The notes beneath the pieces are model-generated. The model worked only from the letters and a program-made list of their open reading frames with translations. It ran no database searches and was not told the DNA's origin. Source: Anaeromyxobacter oryzae (GTDB lineage Bacteria > Myxococcota > Myxococcia > Myxococcales > Anaeromyxobacteraceae). Taken from it: a DNA stretch of 64,000 nucleotides. Location of the stretch: assembly GCF_023169945.1 (NCBI RefSeq), contig NZ_AP025591.1, forward strand, positions 4,460,481 through 4,524,480, written 5' to 3'. Numbering within the stretch: the first letter of the stretch is position 1; each line of letters opens with the position of its first letter. Below are positions 44,282-62,991 of the stretch, one piece after another. Position numbers and translations under genes: made by a program.

Positions 44282-46303
44282 ATGCCCACCCCCATCACCC
44301 TCAAGGTCTTTCGCGGGAACGAGCTCGTCCGGACCGAGCAGTTCAACCGCGAGATCATCAAGATCGGGCGGCTCGCGTCGGCGCACCTCTGCCTCGACGA
44401 CGAGAAGATCTCGCGCATCCACTCGGTCATCGAGGTGGGCTCGGACGGCGCGATCTCCATCATCGACATGGGCAGCGCCGAGGGGACGTTCGTCAACGGC
44501 AAGAAGGTGAGCCGCGGCGCGCTCCGCCTGGGCGATCAGATCACCCTCGGTGGGCTCCGGATCGTGCTCGAGGGGCCGGACGGGGCGAACACCGCGGCGG
44601 TCGAGCCGGTGAACCGCGCCGTCGCGGCGCCGGTCGTGGCCGCGCCGAGGGCGAGCCCGAAGAACGGCACGAACGGGCACGCCAACGGCCACGCGAACGG
44701 GAAGAACGGCACGAACGGGCACACGCACGAGCTGCCCGCCGGGGTCAGCGTTCCCGAGGTGTCCCTGCCGGCGGCGGTCGCCGCGCCCGCGCCCGCGCCG
44801 GCTCCCGCCGAGCGGCCCGTGGCCGTCGAGCGCCCTGCCGCGGTCGTGCGCGCGCCGGCGACGTCCGAGCCGCGTGGACGGTTCCACCTCCGCCCGGCCG
44901 ACCGGGCGATCGAGGATCTCTCCGCCGCCTCCGATCTCGGCGTCGAGCTGCGCCTGCTCTGGGGCGAGACGCTCCTCGAGGCCGCGACGTTCATCCGGCC
45001 GAAGCAGCCGGTCCTCGTCGGCGAGGGGCGCGACTGCGCGATCCGCGTCGAGGGCCTCCCGGTCCCGCAGTTCCCGATGCTCCGCTGCGAGGGCAGCGAG
45101 TACCAGTTCGCGTTCGGCACCGGGATGACGGGCGTCGTCGAGGAGAGGGGCGGGCGCACCGCGTTCGGCGAGCTCGTGAAGTCGCGGAAGGCGCTCCCCG
45201 ACTCGGCGGTGAAGGGCGCGTACTGGATCCCGGTCCCGAAGGCGGGCGCGATCCGCGCCGAGGTCGGCAGCCACCTCGCCATCGAGGCCCGGCCGCGCGT
45301 CCCCGAGCGCGTGAAGCAGGCGCCGATCTGGGAGCGGCTCAACTACCAGCTCCTGAACCTCTTCCTCGTCCTCTTCTTCCTGCAGTCCGGCTTCATCGTG
45401 ATGGCGCGCGACTATCCGTACGACTCGGACGTCGTCGCCGACGATCTGTTCAAGAACCCCTCGCGGATGGCGAAGTTCATCATCAAGCCGCCGGAGGCGC
45501 CGAAGCCGCAGCCGATGGACAAGTCGGCCGGCGACAAGAAGGACGATCCCGGCGAGATGGCCGAGAAGCACAAGGGCGACGAGGGGAAGATGGGGAAGAA
45601 GGACGCCCCGAAGACCAACGGGCGCTCGGCCCCGAAGGCCATCGATCCCAACGCGAAGGACGTCGTGCGGAACAGCGGCCTCCTCGGCGCGCTCGGGCGC
45701 GGCGCGGGCGGCGGCCTCTCCACCGTGTTCGGCCAGGGCGGCCTCGGCGGCGACCTCAAGGGCGCGGTCGGCAACATGTTCGGCCCCGTGGTCGGCGACT
45801 CGCAGGGGCTCGGCGGTCTCGGCATCCGCGGCTCCGGGTCGGGCGGCGGCGGCAGCGGCGAGACCATCGGCATCGGCGCGGTCGGTACGAAGGGCCGCGG
45901 CGGCGGGCTCGGCAGCTACGGCACCGGCGTGGGCGGGCTCGGCAAGAAGGGCGACCACGCGGTGAGCATCGCGACGGGGACCGCCCAGGTGATGGGCTCC
46001 ATCGACCGCGAGCTCGTGCGCAAGGTGATCCAGGATCACGCCGCGCAGATCCGCTACTGCTACGAGCAGCAGCTCGCGCTCAATCCGAAGCTCAGCGGCA
46101 AGGTCTCGATCAAGTGGGTCATCAACGGCGACGGCAGCGCGTCGCTGCCCGAGGTGGAACGCGGGGCGACGACGCTCGAGGACTCGAAGGTCCACGAGTG
46201 CATGATGAGCCGCATCACCAGCTGGCAGTTCCCGAAGCCGAAGGGCGGCGGCATCGCCGTGATCACGTACCCCTGGATCCTCCGGTCCGCCGGCGGCGAG
46301 TAG
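44282..46303 (+). CDS. gltG: gliding motility FHA protein GltG (PglI type)
   Basis: A 673-residue inner-membrane protein. The cytoplasmic FHA domain (about 5-100) shows IKIGRLASAHLCLDD, ISRIHSVIE and GSAEGTFVNGKKV, suggesting phosphothreonine binding. An Asn-Gly-His-Ala repeat linker (about 120-150) and a second FHA-like domain (about 215-330, FIRPKQPVLVGEGRDC) follow. One TM helix is at about 354-375 (LLNLFLVLFFLQSGFIVM). The periplasmic part has a Lys/Pro linker, a long Gly-rich stretch (about 475-560) and an AgmX/PglI C-terminal domain (about 570-670, RYCYEQQLALNPKLSGKV), TonB-C-like, also found in GltJ. It should bridge cytoplasmic signals and the periplasmic machine. Confidence 0.88.
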   Translation: MPTPITLKVFRGNELVRTEQFNREIIKIGRLASAHLCLDDEKISRIHSVIEVGSDGAISIIDMGSAEGTFVNGKKVSRGALRLGDQITLGGLRIVLEGPDGANTAAVEPVNRAVAAPVVAAPRASPKNGTNGHANGHANGKNGTNGHTHELPAGVSVPEVSLPAAVAAPAPAPAPAERPVAVERPAAVVRAPATSEPRGRFHLRPADRAIEDLSAASDLGVELRLLWGETLLEAATFIRPKQPVLVGEGRDCAIRVEGLPVPQFPMLRCEGSEYQFAFGTGMTGVVEERGGRTAFGELVKSRKALPDSAVKGAYWIPVPKAGAIRAEVGSHLAIEARPRVPERVKQAPIWERLNYQLLNLFLVLFFLQSGFIVMARDYPYDSDVVADDLFKNPSRMAKFIIKPPEAPKPQPMDKSAGDKKDDPGEMAEKHKGDEGKMGKKDAPKTNGRSAPKAIDPNAKDVVRNSGLLGALGRGAGGGLSTVFGQGGLGGDLKGAVGNMFGPVVGDSQGLGGLGIRGSGSGGGGSGETIGIGAVGTKGRGGGLGSYGTGVGGLGKKGDHAVSIATGTAQVMGSIDRELVRKVIQDHAAQIRYCYEQQLALNPKLSGKVSIKWVINGDGSASLPEVERGATTLEDSKVHECMMSRITSWQFPKPKGGGIAVITYPWILRSAGGE

Positions 46304-59703: not shown

Positions 59704-61515
59704 ATGAAATTCACCTGCGAGCGCTGTGACGCCCAGTACATGATCTCGGACGAGAAGGTCGGTCCGAACGGCGTCAAGGTCCGCTGCAAGAAGTGCAGCA
59801 ACGTGATCCTGGTCCGGCGCGCCGTGGAGAACGGCGCCGTCGCGGCCGAGGCCCCCGCGCGGGCCGCGGAGGCGCCGGCGCCGGCGCCGGGCGGCACCGG
59901 CGAGCACGCGCTGGAGCGCGAGCTGGGTCACGCCTTCGATCAGGCGTTCGGCGACGCCCCCGCGCCGGCGGCCGCCCCGGCCCCCGATCTCGACGCGACG
60001 CAGGGCGTCTCGGCGGAGGAGGCGGCGCGCATCGCCGCGGCGTCGGCCGCGTCCGCATCGCCGCCCGCGACCGAGTGGTACGTCGCCATCGGGCAGGCGC
60101 AGGTCGGGCCGCTGCCGCTCGCCGAGGTGAGGCGCAAGTGGGAGGCGGGCGACGTCGGCCCCGACTCCCTCGTGTGGCGCCCCGGCATGGGCGACTGGGC
60201 GCCGCTGTCGTCGATGTCGGACCTCGCGACGTACCTCGCGCCGGTGCCACAGGCCTCGCGCACACCGTCGCGCGCCGAGCCGGCGCCGGTCGTCGCCCGG
60301 GCCGAGCACGCGCAGCCCGGGTCCGCCGCCGCGAGCGCCTCCGCGGCGCCCGCGCCGGAGGTCACGTGGAAGCCGGTCGCGGCGAGCGCGCTGGCCGCCC
60401 TCGCGAGCGAGGAGATCGCCGCGCGCGAGCGGCCCGAGCCGCGCGCGGAGGCCCAGCGGCCGGCGCCGAACGGCGTGAAGTCGCTCGTCGAGGAGCTGCC
60501 GGACGGTGGCGGCGTCGACCCGACCGGCGCGATCCCGCTCCCCATCAAGGCGCTCGAGCGGACGGACGAGCAGAAGATCGAGAAGCGGTCGTCGGTGGCC
60601 CGCGGCGCGGAGGAGCTCCGGCACAAGCGGAGCGCCGCGCGCGCGGTGCTGATCGGCGCCGCGGCGGTCGTGGTCGTCGTCGCGGCCGCGGCCGTCATCG
60701 TCGTCCGGTCCATGAACCAGAAGGCTGCGCCGGCGGTGGCCGCCGTCACCGCGCCCGTCGCCCCGGCGCCCGCGCCCGCGCCGCCCGCGGCGGCGCCGGA
60801 ACCGGCGTCCGCCGCGCCGACCCCCTCCGCCGCGGCGCCCGCCGCCGTCGCCGCCGCGCCGGAGGCGCCGAGGTCGGCGCCCGCGCCGGAGGCGGTCCCC
60901 GCCAAGGCCGAGCCTCCGCCCGCGCCCGAGCCGGTGGCGAAGGCGCCCGAGCCGGGCCACGCGCCCGGCAAGATCGCGCACCACGAGCCGGTCGCCCCGA
61001 AGCACAAGGAGGCGCCGCTGCCGCGGAAGGAGAAGGAGCCCGTCCGCGTCGCCCAGGCGTCGCCTCCGCCCGCCGCGGCGCCGCCCCCGCCTGCGCCGAG
61101 GCCGGCGGCCAAGAAGGACTCGCTGCTCGACTTCGACGGCGGCGGCGGTGGCAGCGATCCCGCCCTGGACGAGGCGCTCGGCGGAGGCCGGAAGGTGTAC
61201 GTCCCCGCCGCCCCGGGCGGCGGCACCGTGCCGCAGCGGCTCACCGACTCGCAGGTGAACGAGACCATCCTCGCGCGCGTCTCCGCGCTGCAGCAGTGCG
61301 TGCAGGAGCAGAAGGCGCGCGATCCGGGGGCGAGCGGCGTCCTCAAGATGCGGTGGACGATCGCGCCGGACGGCGGCGTGCAGGCGATCTCGTGCGCGAC
61401 GCCCGAGTACGCCTCGAGCCCGATCGCCCAGTGTCTCACCGGGGTCCTCCGGGGGATGAAGTTCCCGAGGTCGGTGAGCGGGCGACCTGATGTCACCTTC
61501 CCGATAAAGTTCTGA
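59704..61515 (+). CDS. gltJ: gliding motility protein GltJ (AgmX)
   Basis: A 603-residue inner-membrane protein with the full AgmX/GltJ architecture. An N-terminal zinc ribbon (residues 1-40; CERC and CKKC) is followed by an Ala/Pro linker. A GYF domain comes next (about 123-180; EWYVAIGQAQVGPLPLAEV ... PGMGDWAPL), then a second linker, one TM helix (about 314-336, VVVVVAAAAVIVV), a 150-residue Pro/Ala/Lys periplasmic segment and an AgmX/PglI TonB-C-like domain (about 513-603, CVQEQKARDPGASGVLKMRW). In Myxococcus the cytoplasmic zinc ribbon and GYF domains receive MglA-GTP and control focal adhesion assembly, while the periplasmic part contacts the outer-membrane module. Own promoter upstream. 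Confidence 0.92.
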   Translation: MKFTCERCDAQYMISDEKVGPNGVKVRCKKCSNVILVRRAVENGAVAAEAPARAAEAPAPAPGGTGEHALERELGHAFDQAFGDAPAPAAAPAPDLDATQGVSAEEAARIAAASAASASPPATEWYVAIGQAQVGPLPLAEVRRKWEAGDVGPDSLVWRPGMGDWAPLSSMSDLATYLAPVPQASRTPSRAEPAPVVARAEHAQPGSAAASASAAPAPEVTWKPVAASALAALASEEIAARERPEPRAEAQRPAPNGVKSLVEELPDGGGVDPTGAIPLPIKALERTDEQKIEKRSSVARGAEELRHKRSAARAVLIGAAAVVVVVAAAAVIVVRSMNQKAAPAVAAVTAPVAPAPAPAPPAAAPEPASAAPTPSAAAPAAVAAAPEAPRSAPAPEAVPAKAEPPPAPEPVAKAPEPGHAPGKIAHHEPVAPKHKEAPLPRKEKEPVRVAQASPPPAAAPPPPAPRPAAKKDSLLDFDGGGGGSDPALDEALGGGRKVYVPAAPGGGTVPQRLTDSQVNETILARVSALQQCVQEQKARDPGASGVLKMRWTIAPDGGVQAISCATPEYASSPIAQCLTGVLRGMKFPRSVSGRPDVTFPIKF

Positions 61516-61571
61516 GGGAGTCGACGACGTAGGTGCGCAGGGGTGGGGCCCGACCCGCTTTTGCTGGCGGG

Positions 61572-61632
61572 GCGAGGGCGCCAGCCCTCGCTTCCATGGC
61601 TCCGCCCGCGCTCCCGGTTCGCTTGACCGGGA
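61572..61632 (+). other. paired hairpins between gltJ and the RSH-like gene
   Basis: GCGAGGGC (61572-61579) pairs with GCCCTCGC (61584-61591) around GCCA; TCCCGGT (61612-61618) pairs with ACCGGGA (61626-61632) around 7 bases. A third potential stem, GCCGGC twice around CGACA, lies near 61660. None has a T-run. They could end the gltJ message or structure the leader of the next gene. No gene is seen in 61516-61699. Confidence 0.5.
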
Positions 61633-61699
61633 CCGCGGGCGCTGCCATGTTCAGCGCCGCCGGCCGACAGCCGGCGCCCTCCACCACAGAGGCCCCTCT

Positions 61700-62812
61700 T
61701 TGGCGTTCGAGCTGAAGCGCGCCCCCGGCCCTTCCGCCCCTTTCCGCTCGCTCGAGCAGATGGGCGTGGCGGAGCTGGAGGAGCTCAGGCTGCTGCTCCG
61801 CGGCGGCTCGGTCATCGACTGGCGGCGCCTCGAATTCACCGCGGCGGCGGAGGTCGACGCGTTCCTGCGGCTCAACCTGTTCGACCTCGACGACTCGCGC
61901 GACGATCGGCGGCTCCGCGCCATCCTCGGCCAGGCGGTGGACTACCTCCGGAACGCCTTCGGTTACCGGGTCGCCGCGCCGGTGGCGGCGCCGGAGGACG
62001 TGCGCGACGTGTTCCTGCTCGCGTCCGGCGCGCTGGAGCCGAAGAAGTACCGGCGGATCGCGTGCGTGGTCCTGAAGGTGATGCACGTCATCCACCACCT
62101 CGAGGCCCGCGAGCTGCTGTTCCGGACCCCGATCCGCGAGGCGGACCTCGCGGATCGCGTGCACCGGCGGATCATGGCCGAGGCCGAGCGGATGAAGGCC
62201 TCGGGCATGCCCATCGTCGAGTTCGCGGGCAGCGTGAAGGGCCGGTCGTCGCTCGTGACGAAGCTGCTCGCGAAGAAGGAGTCCGTCGCCGCCCAGGTGT
62301 TCGATCGCGTGCGGTACCGGATCGTCACCGAGACGACCGACCAGATCGCGCCGATCGTCCACCACCTCGCCCGGCACCTGTTCCCGTTCAACTACGCGGT
62401 GCCCGGGCAGACGCAGAACAGCCTGGTCCGCTTCGCGGACCTGATCCTCGGGCACCCGCAGGGCTCCGCGGTCGCGGCGCAGCTCCAGCTCCCGCCCGAC
62501 CTCGAGGGGCGGGACCCCGCCGCGCCCCGCAACGAGTTCAGCGGGAAGGACTACCGCGTGCTCAACTTCGTCGTCGACCTGCCGGTCCGGATCGACGACC
62601 TCATGTCGCCGCTCGATCCGATGGCGGACGAGCTCGGGCGGATCGTCTTCTCGCTGGTCGAGTTCCAGGTGGTCGATCGCGCCACGGCCCGCATCAACGA
62701 GGAGGGCGACTCCTCGCACGAGCGGTACAAGCGGCGCCAGCTGAAGCGCGTGCTGCGGCGCCTGTCCCGCGGCCTGGTGGTCCCGAAGAAGAGGAAGCGA
62801 GGTGGATCGTGA
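61700..62812 (+). CDS. divergent RelA/SpoT-like synthetase-domain protein
   Basis: A 370-residue cytoplasmic protein. Its second half follows the order and spacing of a RelA/SpoT (p)ppGpp synthetase domain. K180-x(3)-S184-x(3)-K188 (VKGRSSLVTK) is followed by FDRVRYRIVTET (Asp202, Arg207; compare FDLIAIRCVMET in Rel). Then come VEFQ (Glu321, Gln323) and E-x-G-x(3)-H-x-x-YK (Glu334, Gly336, His340, Lys344). Glu321 to His340 is 19 residues, as in Rel. Differences: the first Arg of the RxK motif is Ser, IRT after ExQ is VVD, and about 60 residues are inserted between Asp202 and Glu321. The N-terminal ~165 residues are helical. TTG start with AGAGG 7 bases upstream. Activity unknown. Confidence 0.72.
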   Translation: MAFELKRAPGPSAPFRSLEQMGVAELEELRLLLRGGSVIDWRRLEFTAAAEVDAFLRLNLFDLDDSRDDRRLRAILGQAVDYLRNAFGYRVAAPVAAPEDVRDVFLLASGALEPKKYRRIACVVLKVMHVIHHLEARELLFRTPIREADLADRVHRRIMAEAERMKASGMPIVEFAGSVKGRSSLVTKLLAKKESVAAQVFDRVRYRIVTETTDQIAPIVHHLARHLFPFNYAVPGQTQNSLVRFADLILGHPQGSAVAAQLQLPPDLEGRDPAAPRNEFSGKDYRVLNFVVDLPVRIDDLMSPLDPMADELGRIVFSLVEFQVVDRATARINEEGDSSHERYKRRQLKRVLRRLSRGLVVPKKRKRGGS

Positions 62813-62991
62813 GAGAGCCGACGAAGGAGAGCCCGATCGACCGCGGCGAGGTCCTCGTCCCGGGCGTGTGCCAGGTCTGCGGCGCCGAGGGGCCCACCAT
62901 CGAGATCCCGGGCGCGGACGCGCCGAACGCGTTCTGCCCGGCCTGCGCCATCGAGTACGGCGAGGGCGCGGCGGAAGACGACGAGGCGTAG
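62809..62991 (+). CDS. tiny zinc-ribbon protein
   Basis: A 60-residue acidic protein whose GTG start overlaps the stop of the RSH-like gene (GTGA at 62809-62812), so it is translationally coupled. Two CxxC knuckles (CQVC and CPAC, 22 residues apart, in VPGVCQVCGAEGPTIEIPG and NAFCPACAIEYG) should hold one zinc ion. The tail is Glu/Asp-rich. It may be a partner or regulator of the RSH-like protein. No larger domain is present. Confidence 0.75.
   Translation: MREPTKESPIDRGEVLVPGVCQVCGAEGPTIEIPGADAPNAFCPACAIEYGEGAAEDDEA

Follow-up and report, generated by a model that had tools for sequence, protein, structure and literature searches.

Which reaction is carried out by the product of a 370-codon reading frame that lies beside the gliding genes of Anaeromyxobacter oryzae? 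The frame is situated in an analysed stretch of 64,000 nucleotides (hereafter the window) of a 6.72-Mb genome assembled as a single contig, and an initial annotation described its product as a cryptic RelA/SpoT-type (RSH) synthetase that could be a new class of small alarmone synthetase, an enzyme making a different nucleotide or a dead sensor. The residues on which this description relied are present in the reading frame at the positions used here, and the start of the gene (TTG, ending at TGA) aligns with an ATG in the close relative L003. By predicted fold and by descent as read from sequence profiles, the protein is real, conserved and distantly related to the (p)ppGpp synthetases. The features of the locus are listed in Table 1.

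Table 1. Features of the synthetase locus, with positions counted from the first nucleotide of the window
Feature	Position	Strand	Evidence
GltG homologue, upstream of giant TPR gene	44282-46303		NF033760, E 1.1e-235
Giant TPR protein of glt cluster, 4127 aa	47258-59641	+	TPR families
gltJ homologue, directly upstream of synthetase	59704-61515	+	NF033761, E 4.8e-147
Predicted RSH-type synthetase of the TIGR04552 family, 370 aa, TTG start	61700-62812	+	NCBIfam TIGR04552 and TIGR04562
Predicted all-helical N-terminal domain, residues 14-170	61739-62209	+	AlphaFold, Foldseek, hhalign
Predicted RSH synthetase-fold domain, residues 171-356	62210-62767	+	Order of secondary structure in the model; Foldseek matches to RelP, RelQ, Rel
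Putative donor triphosphate motif K180-S184-K188	62237-62263	+	Kept in 89/89 distinct homologues
D202-R205-R207, putative catalytic Asp and adenine-side Arg	62303-62320	+	D 88/89, R205 89/89, R207 86/89
Variable insertion, residues 236-277, between P235 and N278	62405-62530	+	Alignment A1; mostly unmatched in Rel
Putative acceptor-side (G-loop) segment N278...S281...Y285-R-x-L-N289	62531-62566	+	Weak alignment to YwaC/SAS2 NGYRSLH
E321-x-Q323-x-x-D326	62660-62677	+	E, Q, D in 88/88 homologues reaching there
N333-E-x-G-x-x-x-H340-x-x-Y343-K344, equivalent to Rel AExGxAAHWxYK	62696-62731	+	hhalign; own-genome Rel against TIGR04552
Zinc ribbon (CxxC...CxxC), 60 aa, GTG start	62809-62991	+	Clade-restricted homologues

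Searching NCBIfam, we found that the protein is a full-length member of TIGR04552 (E 3.7e-112; 375.1 bits against a cut-off of 125; positions 3-352 of 352) and that it also matches the sister model TIGR04562 (E 3.3e-104; 349 bits against a cut-off of 140). TIGR04552 is a named family whose function is uncharacterised and whose description assigns none, so the new class proposed initially is borne out in part: the family was already named, and what is new is its relationship to RSH enzymes, for which a literature search, largely at the level of titles, surfaced no linking paper. The literature searched contained no mention of TIGR04562 and no relevant paper for a small alarmone synthetase (SAS) subgroup named 'MxRel'; in PMC3153485 (Atkinson et al. 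2011) 'bdRel' stands for beta/delta-proteobacteria, and section 6 and part of section 9 of that paper, on RSH, carry no gene lists. Among 195 Myxococcota genomes, 157 carried a TIGR04552 match at E<=0.001 and 153 a match above the cut-off. The family was found in 128 of the 149 good genomes (at least 90% complete, at most 5% contaminated) and in 64 of 90 genera, while none of 14 control genomes matched. A single match was present in 148 of the 157 matching genomes, the other nine having two to four, some of which are pieces of one gene; two genomes of one genus (G084 and G086) have three and four matches, possibly paralogues or mixed assemblies. In PMC9888234, TIGR04552 appears as the name of a Bdellovibrio sp. 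NC01 gene in which one evolved population carries a small indel; given this listing, the family may extend to another predatory lineage. A PHROG search gave no match, and searching viral contigs with the family alignment A1 returned 14 stretches without a confirmed relative. In Myxococcus, multicellular development is set off by (p)ppGpp as a signal of starvation (PMC12288465); if most myxobacteria, as judged by the good genomes, carry a second alarmone-synthetase-like enzyme, the nucleotide signalling of the phylum would be incompletely mapped.

To relate TIGR04552 to known folds and profiles we used A1, which contains 46 of 104 TIGR04552 locus hits after removal of duplicates, of the truncated L080 and L081 and of any sequence with 82% or more identity to a retained one. 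The AlphaFold model (46 family members; pLDDT 88.6, pTM 0.86) gave 137 Foldseek matches in the PDB at E<=10, 36 of them at E<=0.001, the best being RelP (6ewz, E 1.8e-5). Of the best 50 among these 137 matches, 48 are named RSH or GTP pyrophosphokinase (RelP, RelQ, RelSeq, Rel, RelA) and the remaining two (3l9d, smu.1046c) we take to be RelQ; TM-scores within the best 50 are modest, 0.22-0.30 by query length and at most 0.53 by target length. The model runs through strand 172-179, helix 182-191, strand 204-210, helix 213-226, strands 288-297 and 315-326 and helices 327-334 and 340-356, and this order of elements puts K180/S184/K188, D202/R205/R207, Y285, E321/Q323 and H340/Y343 in RSH order. 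Alignment of A1 by hhalign with 22 Rel synthetase domains (A2) yielded probability 82, E 1e-5 and a score of 46.5 over 137 columns, whereas 100 versions of A2 with shuffled columns scored no higher than 22.1 (lowest E 0.042), indicating that the motif likeness pointed out initially exceeds chance. A2 holds 22 of 30 Rel loci, omitting L142 and L143 (without sequence), L132, L139 and L150 (out of frame), L133 (short) and L131 and L152 (close copies); a further set, A6, holds 16.

Pfam searches pointed the same way at lower strength. Among the 46 members, RelA_SpoT was matched by 36 at E<=1 (best 7.3e-6) and was the sole recurring family, every other one being matched by one member. A closer scan of 10 members found RelA_SpoT at E<=0.1 in seven, six of which cover only the first half of the domain, and no such match in three. 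The 27-bit gathering cut-off of RelA_SpoT was not reached by the window protein (15.9 bits) or by the members' listed scores (up to 24.1); the RSH superfamily is thus widened by a group whose listed Pfam scores lie under the cut-off. Two members cover nearly the whole domain: L076 (positions 4-112 of 113, E 4.6e-5) and a homologue on MW495066 (positions 3-111 of 113, E 5e-5). The latter also carries DLVGVR, YRSLH and EIQ and, on account of these motifs and its near-full RelA_SpoT match, bridges TIGR04552 and canonical RSH. Reciprocally, the synthetase region of the Rel encoded in the same genome matched TIGR04552 in the ExQ...H..YK part (E 0.0062). The family profile searched against PDB sequences gave YwaC (SAS2) as its best match (whole-sequence E 0.01), made of two colinear segments, each weak by itself (i-Evalues 1.6 and 88). 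A PF04607 search of the genome detected the canonical Rel and one match of E 1.8, the window protein being absent even at E<=10; across 58 Myxococcota genomes, several TIGR04552 genes scored weakly with this model (E 0.035 to 0.57). With phmmer against the PDB, the window protein retrieved no RSH chain (two unrelated chains, E 1.3 and 2) and the bridging homologue nothing. Comparison by hhalign with three Myxococcota small synthetases is suggestive at most (E 0.0069, probability 5.6). Among viral models, the one Foldseek match at E<=0.001 was to a phage protein named DdrB-like (8.7e-4); several proteins named RelA/SpoT followed at weaker E-values. Together, predicted structure, profiles and the conservation described below support the RelA/SpoT-type assignment.

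Analysis of conservation in 89 distinct proteins, in which the truncated L080 and L081 were included as gaps, revealed that the catalytic K, S, K, D, R, E and Q are each kept in 86 to 89 of 89. K180, S184 and K188 are invariant, D202 is present in 88 and R207 in 86, and E321, Q323, H340 and Y343 occur in all 88 homologues that reach these positions, one truncated copy ending before them. Tyr occupies position 285 in 78 homologues and Phe in the other 11, and N240, N278 and S281 are found in 89 of 89. The spacing from E321 to H340 is 19 residues, identical to E165-H184 of Rel in A2, and D202 to E321 spans 119 residues against 60 (D105-E165) in Rel, in agreement with the insertion of about 60 residues noticed initially. 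The change of the RxK arginine and of the IRT motif, noticed initially, is likewise real and family-wide: the first arginine of RxKxxxSxxxK is never kept (Ser 55, Asn 20, Gly 14 of 89), and the RT that follows ExQ is replaced by a hydrophobic residue and Asp326 in 88 of 88. At position 289, the histidine of YxSxH, 82 of 88 members have Asn, three His and three Ser. In one member (L082:5956-7020) the catalytic Asp is replaced by Pro, possibly marking an inactive copy or an assembly error.

Comparison with characterised enzymes places these residues in context. RelP/SAS2 (YwaC) and RelQ/SAS1 (YjbM), the best PDB matches of the family by fold and by sequence profile, share with it the fold and the order K/S/K, D..R, YR.L, ExQ and H..YK. 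They differ from the window protein, which has 370 residues, a helical N-terminal domain of 150 residues and a long insertion before the G-loop; the family also lacks their first Arg and carries the Asn and Asp replacements given above. Long RSH enzymes (Rel/RelA/SpoT) align with it over the 137 hhalign columns, which end in AExG.AAHW.YK in the former and NExG..SH..YK in the latter; unlike them, the window protein has no similarity to the HD hydrolase and ends soon after the synthetase domain. In the toxSAS FaRel2, K66/S70/K74/D90/R95/E145/Q147 bind the ATP donor and Mg as described in PMC11782079, and all have counterparts of the same spacing in the window protein, where R64 and G93 of FaRel2 correspond to S178 and R205. 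R205, an Arg in 89 of 89, may (with K192) substitute for the first arginine that the donor site lacks; in the bridging homologue position 205 is Gly, and the swap is therefore a suggestion rather than a rule. In contrast to FaRel2 and CapRel, the window protein is found outside a toxin-antitoxin setting.

The N-terminal domain of about 150 residues is without recognisable relative in the PDB folds and in the HD comparison, as judged from its model. Modelled alone (residues 14-170) it is all-helical (AlphaFold pLDDT 87.2), and Foldseek gave 16 matches in the PDB at E<=10, with a best E of 2.2 and hence none at E<=0.001. That it is a degenerate HD hydrolase was rejected on this null together with that of hhalign against the RSH HD domain (probability 0.7, E 0.076); in addition, the Rel HD domain showed no likeness to the TIGR04552 family, nor did the N-terminal part of the family to the Rel synthetase domain. 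G35, S37, D40, Y82 and K126 are invariant in A1, and H129 and H133 are kept in 87 and 86 of 89 homologues. Given that the domain is placed where long RSH enzymes carry HD, a regulatory role is suggested.

We consider that the window protein is probably a divergent, active, chromosomal small alarmone synthetase of the RSH superfamily with a helical N-terminal domain. With the retained set, i.e. donor residues K180/S184/K188, metal ligand D202, base-side R207, E321/Q323, Tyr/Phe 285 of the acceptor loop and H340/Y343/K344, it would bind ATP-Mg and pass the beta,gamma-pyrophosphate on to an acceptor, a purine nucleotide or the like, at its 3'-OH. Regulation, for which long Rel has its HD and regulatory parts, would here fall to the N-terminal domain. 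Its chromosomal and conserved setting argues for a housekeeping signalling enzyme rather than a toxin. Since the genome also encodes one canonical Rel, the protein would be a second alarmone-type synthetase. The RSH relationship thereby gives a family without function a concrete question, namely which acceptor it uses. The change of His to Asn289, that of RT to a hydrophobic residue and Asp326, and the insertion 236-277 suggest a non-standard one, (p)ppGpp being possible as well; from the family-wide changes at donor and acceptor sites a product other than (p)ppGpp is plausible, and the altered substrate-binding residues mean that the enzyme may make a signal molecule related to, yet different from, ppGpp.

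Two proposals address the acceptor. We tentatively put first the pyrophosphorylation of another acceptor, be it an adenosine nucleotide, an RNA 3' end or a new metabolite, which would be a new activity in the RSH superfamily. The acceptor-side replacements, the invariant N240, N278 and S281 and the large insertion are consistent with it, and adenosine nucleotides and tRNA CCA ends are known acceptors of RSH enzymes (PMC11782079); however, the adenosine and tRNA users named there are toxins, in a setting unlike this one. Slightly more doubtful is a second (p)ppGpp synthetase that uses ATP and GDP or GTP as RelP and RelQ do and whose sequence drift is cosmetic. Its closest solved relatives are SAS1 and SAS2, Y285-R286 resembles the SAS G-loop YRSLH, and three of 88 members keep His at 289, all of which would suit such an enzyme, but phylum-wide changes of both donor and acceptor sites look like altered specificity. 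On the side of physiology, PMC12288465 names RelA for (p)ppGpp in Myxococcus development, and the part of PMC4320627 that discusses ppGpp in this process names no further synthetase.

The dead sensor offered by the initial annotation, a catalytically inert RSH-fold protein that would sense a nucleotide or alarmone, has the loss of the first donor-site Arg in 89 of 89 homologues in its favour, together with a new conserved helical domain that could act as effector. We regard it as improbable given that 88 or 89 of 89 homologues retain the catalytic residues, the Asp in all except L082 and the Glu, His and Tyr in every protein that extends to them. From sequence, the window protein is most likely active as an enzyme.

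The overlapping zinc ribbon is present as described, a 60-codon ORF that shares four bases (GTGA) with the end of the synthetase gene. Its claimed standing as the natural partner of the synthetase held up poorly, as a homologue immediately follows the synthetase gene in 16 of 97 distinct loci, counted from 124 after identical or short downstream flanks were dropped and with four further loci of unrelated CxxC patterns excluded. Thirteen of the 16 belong to the family-level taxon of the window; the others are L073 and L118, in other families, and L072, without family assignment. Within the window's own taxonomic family, six loci (L010, L011, L015, L016, L017 and L019) have no downstream ribbon. 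A genome search found the ribbon in 10 of 117 genomes, all of this taxonomic family; in each, its coordinates place it next to the synthetase. This linkage wherever it was found supports a local accessory role, and its limitation to a small clade shows that the ribbon is not an obligate partner; as a general partner of the synthetase it was rejected.

A toxSAS-type toxin with the ribbon as antitoxin is highly improbable: pseudo-Zn-finger domains neutralise FaRel2 and CapRel (PMC11782079), the small ORF overlaps the synthetase gene, and the bridging homologue weakly matches the PADLOC candidate PDC-S33 (E 0.018), as do two Myxococcota small synthetases, but the ribbon is adjacent in so few loci, the YxxY motif of pseudo-Zn-finger antitoxins is absent from all 12 aligned ribbons (A4), the synthetase is a largely single-copy gene of 153 of 195 genomes without a plasmid match, and neither it nor the ribbon matched a PADLOC family.

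The gliding locus alongside, recognised initially, is borne out by GltJ and the TPR protein directly upstream and GltG further upstream. A 184-base gap separates gltJ from the synthetase ORF, and downstream of the zinc ribbon lies a gene for a receiver-domain protein on the opposite strand. Neighbourhoods were compared in the 46 of 51 loci with 4 kb or more of upstream sequence, L100 and L073 being the same contig. A GltJ/GltG cluster protein is found upstream on the same strand in 28 of 46; two of these (L122 and L123) begin like GltG, L122 matching best with the GltG model, and we therefore took 26 of 46 as GltJ-like. Three distant GltJ-like proteins matched the GltJ model under its cut-off (E 1.6e-55 to 4.7e-77). 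The giant TPR homologue is upstream in 23 of 46 loci, and ffh is downstream in 18 of 43 (one example was checked, TIGR00959, E 5.4e-146). Linkage of the synthetase with glt is old, though not universal, and the bridging homologue on MW495066 has secDF and glyS nearby, which together make a purely gliding-specific role unlikely. The most specific picture of the putative synthetase, in which TIGR04552 would be a widespread Myxococcota pyrophosphokinase derived from RSH, making a 3'-pyrophosphorylated signal other than (p)ppGpp under a helical N-terminal sensor of new fold, parallel to canonical Rel and beside an envelope/gliding cluster, is unlikely to hold in all its parts.

Inspection of the gap between gltJ and the synthetase (61537-61596) revealed an element of about 55 bases with nine further matches in the genome at 80-85% identity, adjoined by a 24-base inverted repeat at 61595-61649; the element is probably a dispersed REP-like repeat. 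Myxococcota also hold a second divergent RelA/SpoT-like family that differs from TIGR04552 (L159:279-1370 in G069 and L160:2-1339 in G184). Its PF04607 scores are 27.2 and 20.2 bits, it contains the segments RIKAEEEIWNKVVD, KD-FG-KIVVGTA and TFEIQVQ, and L159 has no meaningful NCBIfam match. The source of the bridging homologue, MW495066.1 (L174 and L175; 95000-140000), gave the sole hit among phage records and is recorded in GenBank as the 274-kb Microcystis phage MaAM05. The 45-kb stretch shown carries smc, scpAB, secDF, glyS, murJ, fliM, pcnB and similar genes, and the record looks like a fragment of a bacterial chromosome filed as a phage.
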